Assembly: GCF_002157855.1 (NCBI RefSeq) | Contig: NZ_CP020880.1 | Location: 1,736,001-1,800,000 of the forward strand | Direction of reading: 5' to 3' | Source of the DNA: Sutcliffiella horikoshii | GTDB lineage: Bacteria; Bacillota; Bacilli; Bacillales; Bacillaceae_I | DNA: 64,000 nt | In this document: piece after piece, positions 8,569 through 54,560 of the stretch | How the letters are laid out: each line of letters begins with the position of its first letter | How positions within the stretch are numbered: the stretch's first letter is position 1 | The notes under the pieces: model-generated | Seen by the model: only the letters and a program-made list of their open reading frames with translations | Told to the model about the DNA's origin: nothing | Database searches by the model: none | Made by a program: the position numbers and the translations under genes

Positions 8569-8635
8569 GCGTTTTGTGAGAAATGTATGATATTGCTTAA
8601 TAGCCGGCACCAAAATGCTCAAAATGGGAATTAGT

Positions 8636-8719
8636 CAATAAACGGGGGGAATTATACAATAAAGTGGTTAAAGTATGCAATAAACCTCTCCAATTATACA
8701 ATAAATCACTTCAAATTAA
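8636..8719. repeat. Phased direct-repeat array 1 (CAATAAA, 21-bp period)
   Basis: Four CAATAAA cores begin at 8636, 8657, 8678 and 8699, exactly 21 bp apart. They are usually preceded by ATTATA and have otherwise non-conserved spacers. It lies 65 bp past the yknV terminator in a 310-bp gene-free stretch. No promoter or gene was seen in the rest of this gap. Confidence 0.8.
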
Positions 8720-8834
8720 CTATAATCCATATATTTACACAAAGGCTTTCGGGATTCTGGAATTATATGTAATGAAAGTGCCTTTTAAATGAGTTTAATG
8801 CAATAACCAGAGGACGTCGCTATAGATATTTTGA

Positions 8835-10278: not shown

Positions 10279-10315
10279 CTTTTGTTATTGGTGAATGTTT
10301 TTCGATTTCCGAAAT

Positions 10316-10439
10316 GTTACAATAACCCATAAAAAAGTCACAACACCATTTGAAAAAGTCACAATAACCACGTGAAAAGTCACAATGAACCTCCGATATG
10401 TTACAATCACCTCCAATACGTCGCAAAAGCGCACCATCG
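10316..10439. repeat. Phased direct-repeat array 2 (GTYACAA, 21-bp period)
   Basis: GTTACAA or GTCACAA cores begin at 10316, 10337, 10358, 10379 and 10400 (exact 21-bp steps), with a weaker GTCGCAA at 10420. Spacers of 14 bp are A-rich but not conserved. The array lies between convergent ktrC and rnjA. Minus-strand ORFs over it show heptad-like peptide repeats purely because 21 bp is seven codons; I do not count them as genes. Confidence 0.82.
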
Positions 10440-34948: not shown

Positions 34949-35407
34949 ATGCCTAACCTTGTAGAAAATGTTCTTGTAGAACCACTTATAGAAGCATTGC
35001 AAAAAGAAACTCTTGTGACAATCAGTACTGTGGATTATGAAACAGGTGGTCCGAATGTGAGTGCAATCTCCTGGCTATTTGCTCCAAATGAGAAGACTAT
35101 TTTACTTGCTGTTAATGCGGAGTCTCGCATTGTGAAGAATGTGTCCCATAATAGCGAATTAGTGGTTAACCTGATGGCCAATGATTCGGTTTACTCCATT
35201 CATACGGAAGCAACTGTTAAAGTAGAGAGAATGGATAATGTCCCATTAAAATTGGCGTTGTTGCATCTTGATGTAAAAGTAGTAAGGGATGTCATGTTTT
35301 ATGGAGCGAAAATAAGTGTAGAGCCGAAATTCGAGAAGACCTATGATGTAGAAGCTGCTAAGAAATTAGACCATCAGGTAATGACGGCGGTCCGTAGGTA
35401 TAGCTAA
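34949..35407 (+). CDS. ylaL: Pyridoxamine 5'-phosphate oxidase-like protein YlaL
   Basis: The 152-aa protein resembles FMN-binding split-barrel PNPOx-like proteins (ETLVTISTVDYETGGPNVSAISWLFAPNEKTILLAVNAESRIVKNVSHNSELVVNLM). It matches YlaL in size and position; no substrate is known. AGGGGGATGG precedes ATG 34949. A terminator and composite repeat pair 2 follow. Confidence 0.87.
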   Translation: MPNLVENVLVEPLIEALQKETLVTISTVDYETGGPNVSAISWLFAPNEKTILLAVNAESRIVKNVSHNSELVVNLMANDSVYSIHTEATVKVERMDNVPLKLALLHLDVKVVRDVMFYGAKISVEPKFEKTYDVEAAKKLDHQVMTAVRRYS

Positions 35408-35449: not shown

Positions 35450-35470
35450 TGAAAGTAAGTATAAATTCCG

Positions 35471-35595
35471 GTTGATTTCCGTTCCAGGGGCTTCGCTTGC
35501 CTGCGGGCGGTCCGTGAGCTTCCTCGGGTTCGCCTTCCTGGGTCTCACCTGTCCCTTCCCCCGCGGGCGTCTGCGCGCCTTCCACTCCATTCAAG
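35471..35595 (-). repeat. Palindromic element, subtype A (pair 2, degenerate end)
   Basis: 125 bp starting GTTGATT; the right end reads ATTCAAG instead of AATCAAC, so the terminal stem is damaged. 88 bp from the B partner. Confidence 0.87.
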
Positions 35596-35683
35596 AAGGT
35601 GGCTTCATTCATCGAAGGGTTTATGAAATGGTATCTAACCGAGAGAACTGAATAAGCACCTATGTATATTTTACGTAATTTTA

Positions 35684-35820
35684 GCTGTGGATTGGAGCAA
35701 ATGGTGGAGTCTCCAGCGGGGAGCGGGGGAGTAACGGTAGCTTGAGACCCCCCACAGCGCAGCGAGGAGGCTCAAGCACCGTCCCGCGGAAAGCGAAGGC
35801 CATTTGCGGAAAGGAACAGC
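35684..35820 (+). repeat. Palindromic element, subtype B (pair 2)
   Basis: 137 bp, GCTGT to ACAGC, with inner arms CAAATGG/CCATTTG and GCTTGAG/CTCAAGC. It has a small GGGGA-type insertion relative to pair 1. Confidence 0.88.
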
Positions 35821-35859
35821 TGCGATAACCCAATACCCTTGTGGTTTATGATAGTAGTG

Positions 35860-35887
35860 ACCGGGCTTCCTTCGGCCGGTTTTTCTT
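35860..35887 (+). terminator. Terminator-like hairpin after pair 2
   Basis: CCGG ... CCGG self-complementary arms followed by TTTTTC, about 40 bp after the B element. Confidence 0.6.
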
Positions 35888-35930
35888 GAAGTGGGAGGGG
35901 GCGAGGGTAATATTGTTGGACCGAGTCGAT

Positions 35931-36050
35931 TTCTTGATATAATCTGTTTTTTCTTGATATATCACAAAAATTCTTGATATATCTCCAGAATTCTTGATAT
36001 ATCCGGAAATTTATTGATATATTGTTTTTTTTCTTGATATCCCCTCACCC
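35931..36050. repeat. Phased direct-repeat array 3 (TTCTTGATAT, 20-bp period)
   Basis: TTCTTGATAT cores begin at 35931, 35951, 35971, 35991 and 36031, with TTATTGATAT at 36011: six copies in exact 20-bp register. The 10-bp spacers vary apart from a frequent leading AT. It lies between pair 2 and the terminator of ylaJ. Confidence 0.88.
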
Positions 36051-36065: not shown

Positions 36066-36113
36066 CATAAAAAACTGCCCCGAAGTGGAAGTTAATCCAC
36101 GTCGGGACAGCTA
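36066..36113 (-). terminator. Terminator after ylaJ
   Basis: Minus-strand stem GTCCCGACGTGG pairing CCACTTCGGGGC, then TTTTTT. Confidence 0.9.
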
Positions 36114-36135: not shown

Positions 36136-36765
36136 CTAGTCCTGTTTTACTTCCTTGTATCGTTTTTCGTCTTTTTGGTTATTGGATTGATTCTGTTGTT
36201 TCTGTTCCAGTTGTTTTTCCTGATCTTTTGGAAGTTTCGAGTTATTTTGCTCCGTTGGGTTAGGAGCTACCGGTTCTTTTAGATCAATCGGAATTTCAGG
36301 CATTACCCTTCCAACAATCTCCGCCAACTCTTCCATCACACCTGTTACAGGTCGTCCGTTTTGAATGTCTCGTCCCATTTCCTGCAAGCGAACAAAGGAG
36401 TCTGCATCTGCAAGGATGATAGCCGTAGCCCCATATGGGTCATTCTTCAAACTCTCTGCCACAGAATATTTAATGGTGCTTACTCTTTCACGGTCTAGGT
36501 CAGAGTTTACATCAATCCCTACCACCGCGTATGGACCAAGCACAACAGCAGTTGCATCATTTACATTTGGAACTCTTGTAGCAAGTTCCACCAGATGAGC
36601 GGAAACTTCCTGCCCTGTTTTTCTATCCACCTGCACATCTGCAGAATCTTTTACATGAATAATACGAGAGTTTTCATTCTCGCTTGAGATATTTCTTGGT
36701 TGATTGTTCATACAACCTGTAAGAGACAATGTTACGATTGCGGTCACTAATAAATATCTTTTCAC
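36136..36765 (-). CDS. ylaJ: YhcN/YlaJ family sporulation lipoprotein
   Basis: The 209-aa protein has a signal peptide and lipobox SLTGC (~residue 18), then a YhcN/YlaJ domain (VPNVNDATAVVLGPYAVVGIDVNSDLDRERVSTIKYSVAESL) and a Gln/Lys-rich low-complexity tail (~165-209). Family members are found in spore membranes and affect germination. AGGAGTGAAATAG precedes the ATG. It is divergent from ylaK. Confidence 0.9.
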   Translation of the reverse strand: MKRYLLVTAIVTLSLTGCMNNQPRNISSENENSRIIHVKDSADVQVDRKTGQEVSAHLVELATRVPNVNDATAVVLGPYAVVGIDVNSDLDRERVSTIKYSVAESLKNDPYGATAIILADADSFVRLQEMGRDIQNGRPVTGVMEELAEIVGRVMPEIPIDLKEPVAPNPTEQNNSKLPKDQEKQLEQKQQNQSNNQKDEKRYKEVKQD

Positions 36766-52689: not shown

Positions 52690-52820
52690 ATGAGGACCTC
52701 GATGACGAGAATTCAGGAAAAGAGAAGTCCTCATCGCTCGTATGAAGACATCAGTTACGGGAAATCAGGGGGAGAGAAGACCTCATCGCTCGTATGAAGA
52801 CATCAGTTACGGGAAATCAG
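52690..52820. repeat. 52-bp tandem repeat array, left part
   Basis: One degenerate and two good units left of the IS. TCATCGCTCG anchors start at 52731 and 52783 (52 bp). Each unit contains GTCCTCAT or GACCTCAT and ATGAAGAC arms flanking CGCTCGT, a potential hairpin. The period is not a multiple of three, so the array is not a coding repeat. Confidence 0.9.
52813..52820. repeat. IS target-site duplication, left
   Basis: GAAATCAG, 8 bp, repeated at 54319-54326. Confidence 0.92.
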
Positions 52821-54318
52821 AGTCAAGTCCATATTAATGTGTAAAAATAGTTACAATGAGATCTAATGCTAAATGTGTTATGGGGTTATGTTTTCAGGTC
52901 TTGTTCTTCTTAAAGGTTTAGGGTGTATTCTTTACCCCCTAGGGGGTAAAATTTTCCCTTTTTATGGCCCAGTCACTGTAAGCGCTTTTTTATTAACAAA
53001 CATTAATGTGACAGTTCACATAATTCCGTTTAGGGAATTAAAAAACTATTTTACTTAGATATGGTGTATATACTTTGACTTACTCCATTCTTCCTCCATT
53101 TTCATCAGTACAGATCCAATTATACGTATTGCAGATTGATCGTTCGGGAAAATTTGAATTACCCTTTCTCTTCTCCTTATTTCCCTATTTACTCTTTCTA
53201 GCATATTGGTTGTACGTAAGTGTTTGTGAAGCTCAGCTTTTTGAGAATGAAACTGCATTGCATCTTCAAAGCCAGCATCCAACGTTTCAATTACCTTAGT
53301 AAACCCTTTTACTTCGTAATACTTCTCAATAAAGTCGCGCTTCAGTTCTCGGCTCAATTTAATGTTGGATGTTCTAAAGATTTCCTTGAGTTCTGTTTTT
53401 GCTTCTGAAGAGTTTTTCTTAGGAAAGGAGTCCATTATATTCCTAAGAAAATGAACACAACACCTTTGCCAAGAGGTTCCTAAAAAGGATTCTTTTATAG
53501 CAGCCACTAACCCTGCATGTGCATCAGAAATCACCATCTTAGGTGATTGTATCCCTCTTGATTTTAGGTGATCAAAGAAATTAGACCAACTTTCTTCTGA
53601 TTCCCCATGGGTAACCCTTAACCCAATAATCTCTCTATGTCCTTCTTCGTTTACACCGCAAGCTATAAGTACTCCTTTTGAAACAACCCTATCGTTCTCA
53701 CGAACTTTAATATACATGGCATCAACATATATGTATGGATAATAAAGGGTGTTTAGTGGGCGGTTTCTCCACTCATTAACTATTGGATCCAATGATTTAG
53801 TGAGGTTAGATACTAGTGATTTAGATACACCTTTTCCACACAGTTCTTCTACAATCTTGGTAACTTTACGAGTTGAGACTCCATTTACAACCATCTCAAT
53901 CATAGAAAGAATTAGAGCTTGTTCGCATCGCTCATACTTTTGGAATACAGAAGTTGAAAATTCACCATCACGAGTTCGGGGAACCTTTAATGTGAGTGAG
54001 CCAGTGCCGGTAATTAATTCTCGTTCATAGTAGCCATTCCGATATCCTCTGCGGTCATCCGTTCTCTCGTGAGAGAGAGCATTAATATATTCGTCCCTTT
54101 CTTTCTCCATAAGCGAATTCAATACAAGGGCTAAAGATGCTTTTACCGGGGATCCTAAAGAGCTTTTTTCTACCTCGGCTTTAAGTTGTTCCAAATTTAT
54201 AGTAATATTAATGTTGGTCATTATCATTGCCTCCGTGTGTGATTGTTTTTCGTCGAACACATTGTAACACGGACATTGATAATGGCCTTTCTTTTTACAC
54301 AATTATATAGACTTAATC
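52821..54318 (-). mobile_element. IS256-family insertion sequence
   Basis: 1498-bp element containing one transposase gene. Terminal inverted repeats of about 27 bp begin AGTCAAGTCCATATTAAT on the left and, read inward on the minus strand, GATTAAGTCTATATAATT on the right, both running into GTGTAAAAA. It is flanked by GAAATCAG duplications. Removing the element plus one duplication restores an exact 52-bp register in the host tandem array, which confirms the ends. Confidence 0.95.
53055..54221 (-). CDS. IS256-family transposase
   Basis: The ~388-aa mutator-type DDE transposase has first acidic residue in YIYVDAMYIKVREN, second in MVISDAHAGLVAAI, the SWQRCCVHFLRN region, and a C-terminal TTNMLERVNREIRRRERVIQIFPN containing the Glu. 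The open frame reaches 54302, but ATG 54221 has GGAGG at 8 bp and gives the family length. The frame is intact, so the element may be active. Confidence 0.96.
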   Translation of the reverse strand: MTNINITINLEQLKAEVEKSSLGSPVKASLALVLNSLMEKERDEYINALSHERTDDRRGYRNGYYERELITGTGSLTLKVPRTRDGEFSTSVFQKYERCEQALILSMIEMVVNGVSTRKVTKIVEELCGKGVSKSLVSNLTKSLDPIVNEWRNRPLNTLYYPYIYVDAMYIKVRENDRVVSKGVLIACGVNEEGHREIIGLRVTHGESEESWSNFFDHLKSRGIQSPKMVISDAHAGLVAAIKESFLGTSWQRCCVHFLRNIMDSFPKKNSSEAKTELKEIFRTSNIKLSRELKRDFIEKYYEVKGFTKVIETLDAGFEDAMQFHSQKAELHKHLRTTNMLERVNREIRRRERVIQIFPNDQSAIRIIGSVLMKMEEEWSKSKYIHHI

Positions 54319-54560
54319 GAAATCAGGGGGAGAGAAGACCTCATCGCTCGTATGAAGACATCAGTTATGGGAATTCAGGAGAAGAGAAGTCCTCATCGCT
54401 CGTATGAAGACATCAGTGACGGGAAATCAGGGGGAGAGAAGTTCTCATCGCTCGTATGAAGACATCAGTTACGGGAAATCAGGGGGAGAGAAGTTCTCAT
54501 CGCCCGTACGAAACCTCAGTGATGGGAATTCAGGAGGAGAGAAGTCCTCATCGCCAATTT
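54319..54560. repeat. 52-bp tandem repeat array, right part
   Basis: Units with TCATCG anchors at 54341, 54393, 54445 and 54497 (exact 52-bp steps), with a degraded last unit at 54548. The first 8 bases are the right-hand target duplication. Units drift gradually from left to right. The 180 bp after the array (54561-54743) holds no gene; ACGTCC/GGACGT arms occur at about 54663-54708. Confidence 0.9.

Follow-up and report, generated by a model that had tools for sequence, protein, structure and literature searches.

Six 10-bp cores in exact 20-bp register beside ylaJ, and their possible role as phased protein sites

Between ylaJ and its convergent ylaL-like neighbour, in a stretch of 64,000 nucleotides from Sutcliffiella horikoshii (the window), a short core is repeated six times at a fixed distance, and the question is what such an array does there. 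An earlier note had described six 10-bp cores in exact 20-bp register. The core starts (35931, 35951, 35971, 35991, 36011 and 36031) and simulations both confirm this; across 50 Markov-simulated windows the maximum in register was one core, never two. Five of the six cores read TTCTTGATAT and the one at 36011 reads TTATTGATAT. The span of 35931-36050 given at the time holds for the array proper up to 36040, and 36041-36050 is C-rich flank (Table 1). The array is, as claimed, the most perfect of the three found in the window, and it does sit between the hairpin of the element called composite pair 2, about 47 bp upstream, and a hairpin on the ylaJ side downstream. The tie to composite pair 2 stands as adjacency at this locus and is local only, other arrays being without that element. 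Positions 35470-35840 hold a GC-rich composite repeat of ~350 bp, of which the genome has 40 or more copies at 78-86% identity; it was rejected as a general partner of the arrays, being a separate repeat that is missing at the others.

Table 1. Positions in the window of the arrays and of the features around the ylaJ-locus array.
Feature	Position	Strand	Basis
Six-core array, TTMTTGATAT cores of 10 bp, period 20 bp, consensus unit TTMTYGATATATCYYRADWW	35931-36040	+	sequence read
Left boundary motif GTCGAT of the ylaJ-locus array	35925-35930	+	family comparison
G-rich flank upstream of the array, family-typical	35891-35908	+	
CC and C-rich right flank, closing the array	36041-36050	+	
Terminator-like hairpin (35861-35875) with T tail (to ~35884), upstream of the array	35861-35884	+	
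Hairpin with T-run, likely ylaJ terminator	about 36069-36111	-	direct reading; scan made no call
PNPOx_N-domain gene (ylaL-like), convergent neighbour	34949-35407	+	
ylaJ (Spore_YhcN_YlaJ lipoprotein), convergent neighbour	36136-36765	-	
Second array type, six GTYACAAT-like cores, steps of 21, 21, 21, 21 and 20 bp	10316-10430	+	core-free scan, relatives
Third array type, 4-5 CAATAAA cores 21 bp apart, flanked by convergent genes	8632-8720	+	core-free scan, relatives

The array is not alone. A pair of cores at 20 bp occurs in nine places in the 4.29 Mb genome, all of them intergenic, and reversed-pattern controls gave zero matches there. Nearly all of these nine arrays have six cores, one has seven and one has two, and the two-core remnant has as its counterpart in the relative G007 an array with all six cores. 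When clustered by their flanks, the Sutcliffiella arrays of 11 species fall into about 15 orthologous loci. Exactly six cores were counted in 46 of 71 parsed arrays, a set that includes two outliers and two opposite-strand artefacts, and the six come either as a single run or in groups of 2+2+2, 3+3 or 2+4 with 21-bp joints between them. Apart from a single step of 19 bp, all measure 20 or 21 bp, and those of 21 bp are mostly found where CC comes after the core. All cores run head to tail across the family. The copy number departs from six in G014 (about 45), G008 (about 14) and G241 (10-16). Among 84,980 species the three-core pattern was confined to the S. horikoshii group and a single Colwellia contig, the latter taken as a chance match; among Bacillales it was found in 8 of 397 genomes, all within the genus. 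A relaxed pattern that allows any dinucleotide (TTCNNGATA) added three further species with other cores, making 11 of the 16 genus members. At one locus (L187, G012:C35, 4145-4637) neighbouring arrays of 6 and 12 cores adjoin trxA, which suggests local expansion through duplication.

The arrays also have a direction. The start of GTCGA lies at -6 relative to the first core in 19 arrays, at -16 in 6 and at -26 in 7, and the motif was never seen downstream of arrays in the family, so that the left boundary is polar. The left flank is G-rich (G 0.37-0.39 vs C 0.10-0.12 from -60 to -20) and the right flank C-rich, and CC usually comes right after the last core (32 of ~60 TTCTTGATAT-type arrays). 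The composition within the arrays is periodic at 10 bp. Furthermore, the resemblance of the spacer to the core at +10 was reached in 158 of 5000 shuffles, a marginal signal that each unit may consist of a strong and a weak half-site. Between loci the end spacers are hardly more alike than the middle ones, 4.8 and 5.1 of 10 positions for the first and penultimate spacers as compared to 4.7, a comparison that gives little sign of similar end units arising through the copying of whole arrays.

To compare divergence, the ylaJ locus was fetched by its protein, which makes the test free of pattern bias. In the seven species compared, divergence is 0.8% at the fixed positions of the core and 27% in the spacers. 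All seven keep the register; its loss in close relatives, which the earlier note had named as a sign against its reading, was thus not seen. Other relatives carry something different at the same place. G014 has about 45 units of TTCCGGATAT/TTCAAGATAT, homogenised as 40-bp units, G008 has about 14 units, mainly TTCATGATA, and G003 has a few degenerate ones, which implies that the locus and the period are older than the core. Six relatives (G004, G011, G015, G009, G002 and G001) have only the shared terminator. Elsewhere in the genus the cores have changed to TTCCGG/TTCAAG or TTCATG, with locus and 20-bp period unchanged.

The same behaviour can be followed at the other two arrays of the window. 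They were found with a core-free scan, which looked for similar 7-, 8- or 10-mers strung together at spacings tried between 13 and 32 bp. Of these, only the 20/21-bp spacing gave arrays in the window; there were three, near 8632, near 10312 and at 35931, each with its own core. The array between the convergent KtrC/TrkA-like and rnjA-like genes is present in 8 of 8 array-clade relatives examined, with an altered core in G003, and G011 has an empty site of 51 bp at this locus. At 8632, G013 shows an identical T-to-A change in four of the four main units, giving TCAAAAAA, with spacers that are largely retained, one of them without a single difference. Simple duplication or gene conversion would have made the spacers in between uniform as well, and the coordinated change of the cores therefore points to a factor that recognises them. 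The window also holds 52-bp tandem repeats at 52721-52820 (~2 copies) and 54319-54554 (4.6 copies), which flank a transposase-like ORF at 53055-54302, IS256-like by eye.

Within the family, a gene pointing at the array has its 3' end roughly 60-140 bp away, and the distance from array to gene starts varies widely. Tandem neighbours run either way relative to the array, and two of the surrounding pairs, ylaL/ylaJ and cyclase/gnd, are convergent. Since the arrays follow 3' ends in both orientations and also stand between convergent genes, they are not ordinary operators, and they are not RNA elements either. In Pfam tests the neighbours proved to be housekeeping and sporulation genes.

The reading we prefer, with a probability of about 0.58, is that the array consists of six phased sites on double-stranded DNA for a putative sequence-specific binding protein with a role at the level of the chromosome. 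It is the conserved cores, the drifting spacers, the 20/21-bp steps, the polar boundary and the coordinated core changes that suggest protein sites on one helical face. Each 20-bp unit would be two helical turns, which lets a protein on one face align head to tail, with TTMTYGATAT as the strong half-site and possibly a weak one 10 bp beyond it. The candidate protein would cover about 110-125 bp, in a nucleoprotein array that starts at the GTCGAT boundary and ends at CC, and it would act through the double strand and not through RNA. Such a complex may serve topology, wrapping, segregation or a transcription boundary rather than the regulation of one gene, and the specificity of the predicted protein would drift between lineages. 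Register, copy number, strand independence, position after genes, conservation and switching of cores, boundaries and wide spread can be read from the letters themselves; protein binding and the chromosome-level role of the complex are what we infer. It counts against the protein-site reading that the search named no binding protein. So do the copy numbers other than six, the marginal signal for the weak half-site and a mildly positive RNA fold test. A Rep_3 initiator (PF01051) was ruled out as the binder, as this domain is absent from the own genome and occurs in 2 of the 16 genus members. The six-copy rule, the phased boundary and the coordinated core switching together make a direct test possible.

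Two other explanations are live, both unlikely and to about the same degree. Positive supercoils build up at gene 3' ends, an array of ~120 bp is near the length wrapped by gyrase, and the BIMEs of Escherichia coli are said to act as topology sites for gyrase or bending proteins. The arrays could likewise be topology sites, at which some 120 bp of DNA, phased at 10/20 bp, is wrapped around gyrase or a bending protein, and their place after gene ends and between convergent genes, their length, their independence of orientation and their 10-bp periodicity are all compatible with this. However, the cores are specific 10-mers that are fixed within a lineage and switch between lineages, and the arrays are patchy whereas gyrase is universal. 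Alternatively, the arrays may be neutral or selfish tandem repeats without cellular function, tolerated after terminators. The patchy distribution, the intergenic placement, and the expansion to about 45 copies in homogenised 40-bp units in G014 would fit, but inert repeats do not account for spacers that diverge when cores do not, for a count of six kept despite differing internal joints, or for coordinated core switches without homogenised spacers.

An operator array, through which a transcription regulator acts on the neighbouring genes, is far less probable. The earlier note spoke of operator iterons, and of this the iteron-like character, with sites probably on one helical face, survives. 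Some arrays in tandem context do lie ~100-125 bp upstream of a start codon, but at least two family loci, ylaL/ylaJ included, are convergent without a downstream promoter, the neighbouring genes have no function in common, and the arrays keep a narrow range of distances to gene ends and a loose one to gene starts. An operator for ylaJ or ylaL was rejected on the convergent geometry and the position in the family. Tandem sigma-A promoters (TTGATA-18-TATATT) were also rejected; the only promoter-like match of the scan was the repeat itself, at chance level with one against 0.9 expected, and other species have CGGATA or ATGATA there. Least probable of all is an element that acts in 3' UTRs as RNA, either through its structure or through a bound protein. 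The arrays do lie near 3' ends and one fold test was mildly positive (z about -2.5, both strands), but either strand can be the transcribed one, the fixed 20/21-bp step fits turns of the DNA helix and Rfam gave no match at the ylaJ-locus array. RNA structure was rejected on the weak folding of both strands and the random orientation. Elsewhere in the window, 25926-26144 matches the Rfam SR1 antisense sRNA (48.8 bits; cut-off 45).

Arrays of the same kind appear outside the genus. In G193, from another family, TTCATGATAA/TTCAGGATAA cores stand at seven loci in 20/21-bp steps, in places with the same G-rich and C-rich flanks as in Sutcliffiella, and G241 carries TTTCCGGATAAT and TTTGTGATAACT in long arrays with a 21-bp step. 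Four GATAA at 20/21-bp spacing were found in 98 of 397 Bacillales genomes and 52 of 135 genera, an upper estimate for this core type since some matches (L290 and L302 among them) overlap with open frames and probably represent intragenic repeats. The reversed control (AATAG at 20/21 bp) gave ~17 genomes, mostly from two genera, g62 and g119, which may have cores of their own. In the examples from the GATAA search the bases before the constant GATAA are lineage-specific. Judged from these matches, the distribution of the array class in Bacillales is wide in the order, yet patchy. It is tempting, though we would put it at clearly less than even odds, to see here a class of chromosomal, satellite-like arrays after genes, phased at 20/21 bp and with several core types per genome, that forms a chromosome-organising nucleoprotein system in which the specificity of the factors co-evolves locus by locus. 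If this is real, cores that are specific to a lineage would offer a rare parallel, in bacteria, to the fast evolution of centromeres and satellites.

The closest likenesses are found on plasmids. Iterons of the RepA/pi/RepE type (Rep_3) are asymmetric direct repeats, head to tail, in several copies about two helical turns apart and on the same face. Their tandem repeats of ~17-22 bp resemble the 20/21-bp arrays, but the latter are chromosomal, dispersed over ~10 loci and without an adjacent rep gene. In the type II plasmid centromeres parC (ParMRC), ParR binds direct repeats cooperatively. The repeats bound by ParR are 20 bp long in pSK41, 11 bp in R1 and 10 bp in pB171 (PMC9426499). Direct repeats of 10 or 20 bp with family-specific sequence and spacing are of the right kind, but parC is one site upstream of parM and the arrays stand at many loci; no parM or parR was found with Pfam among the neighbours examined. 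Membership in either group is unsupported because the partner genes are missing nearby, and plasmid iterons and ParR-type centromeres may instead be regarded as mechanistic analogues. REP/BIME and other extragenic repeats are likewise intergenic, after gene ends and often near terminators, but they are palindromic stem-loops in alternating orientation, unlike the head-to-tail phased and weakly folding cores. CRISPR-like arrays share a constant core alternating with a variable spacer of fixed length, but here the core is 10 bp, the period 20 bp and the spacers conserved between species by descent, and no cas genes were found among the flanking genes examined. A phage or plasmid origin was rejected after searches: viral contigs had zero matches to the three-core pattern, the array of a relative matched no plasmid or phage, and the relaxed pattern gave two single matches, a near-identical 20-bp simple repeat (L232) and a short run (L233).

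A search of the open PMC subset returned nothing on such arrays, which is weak evidence of absence. They resemble iteron-like arrays, as a variant without a published description in that literature, and there is a sizeable chance that the array class itself is new. If real, it adds to the chromosome a widespread layer of sequence, one which annotation pipelines may take for short junk genes. Translated, the arrays give spurious ORFs whose peptides are periodic (ISRK/YQE or RIM.PRF, for example). In G241 several 21-bp arrays of 3 to 16 copies within 13 kb (L269, C3:3266000-3285000) appear as such spurious ORFs, with a peptide period of 7 residues.
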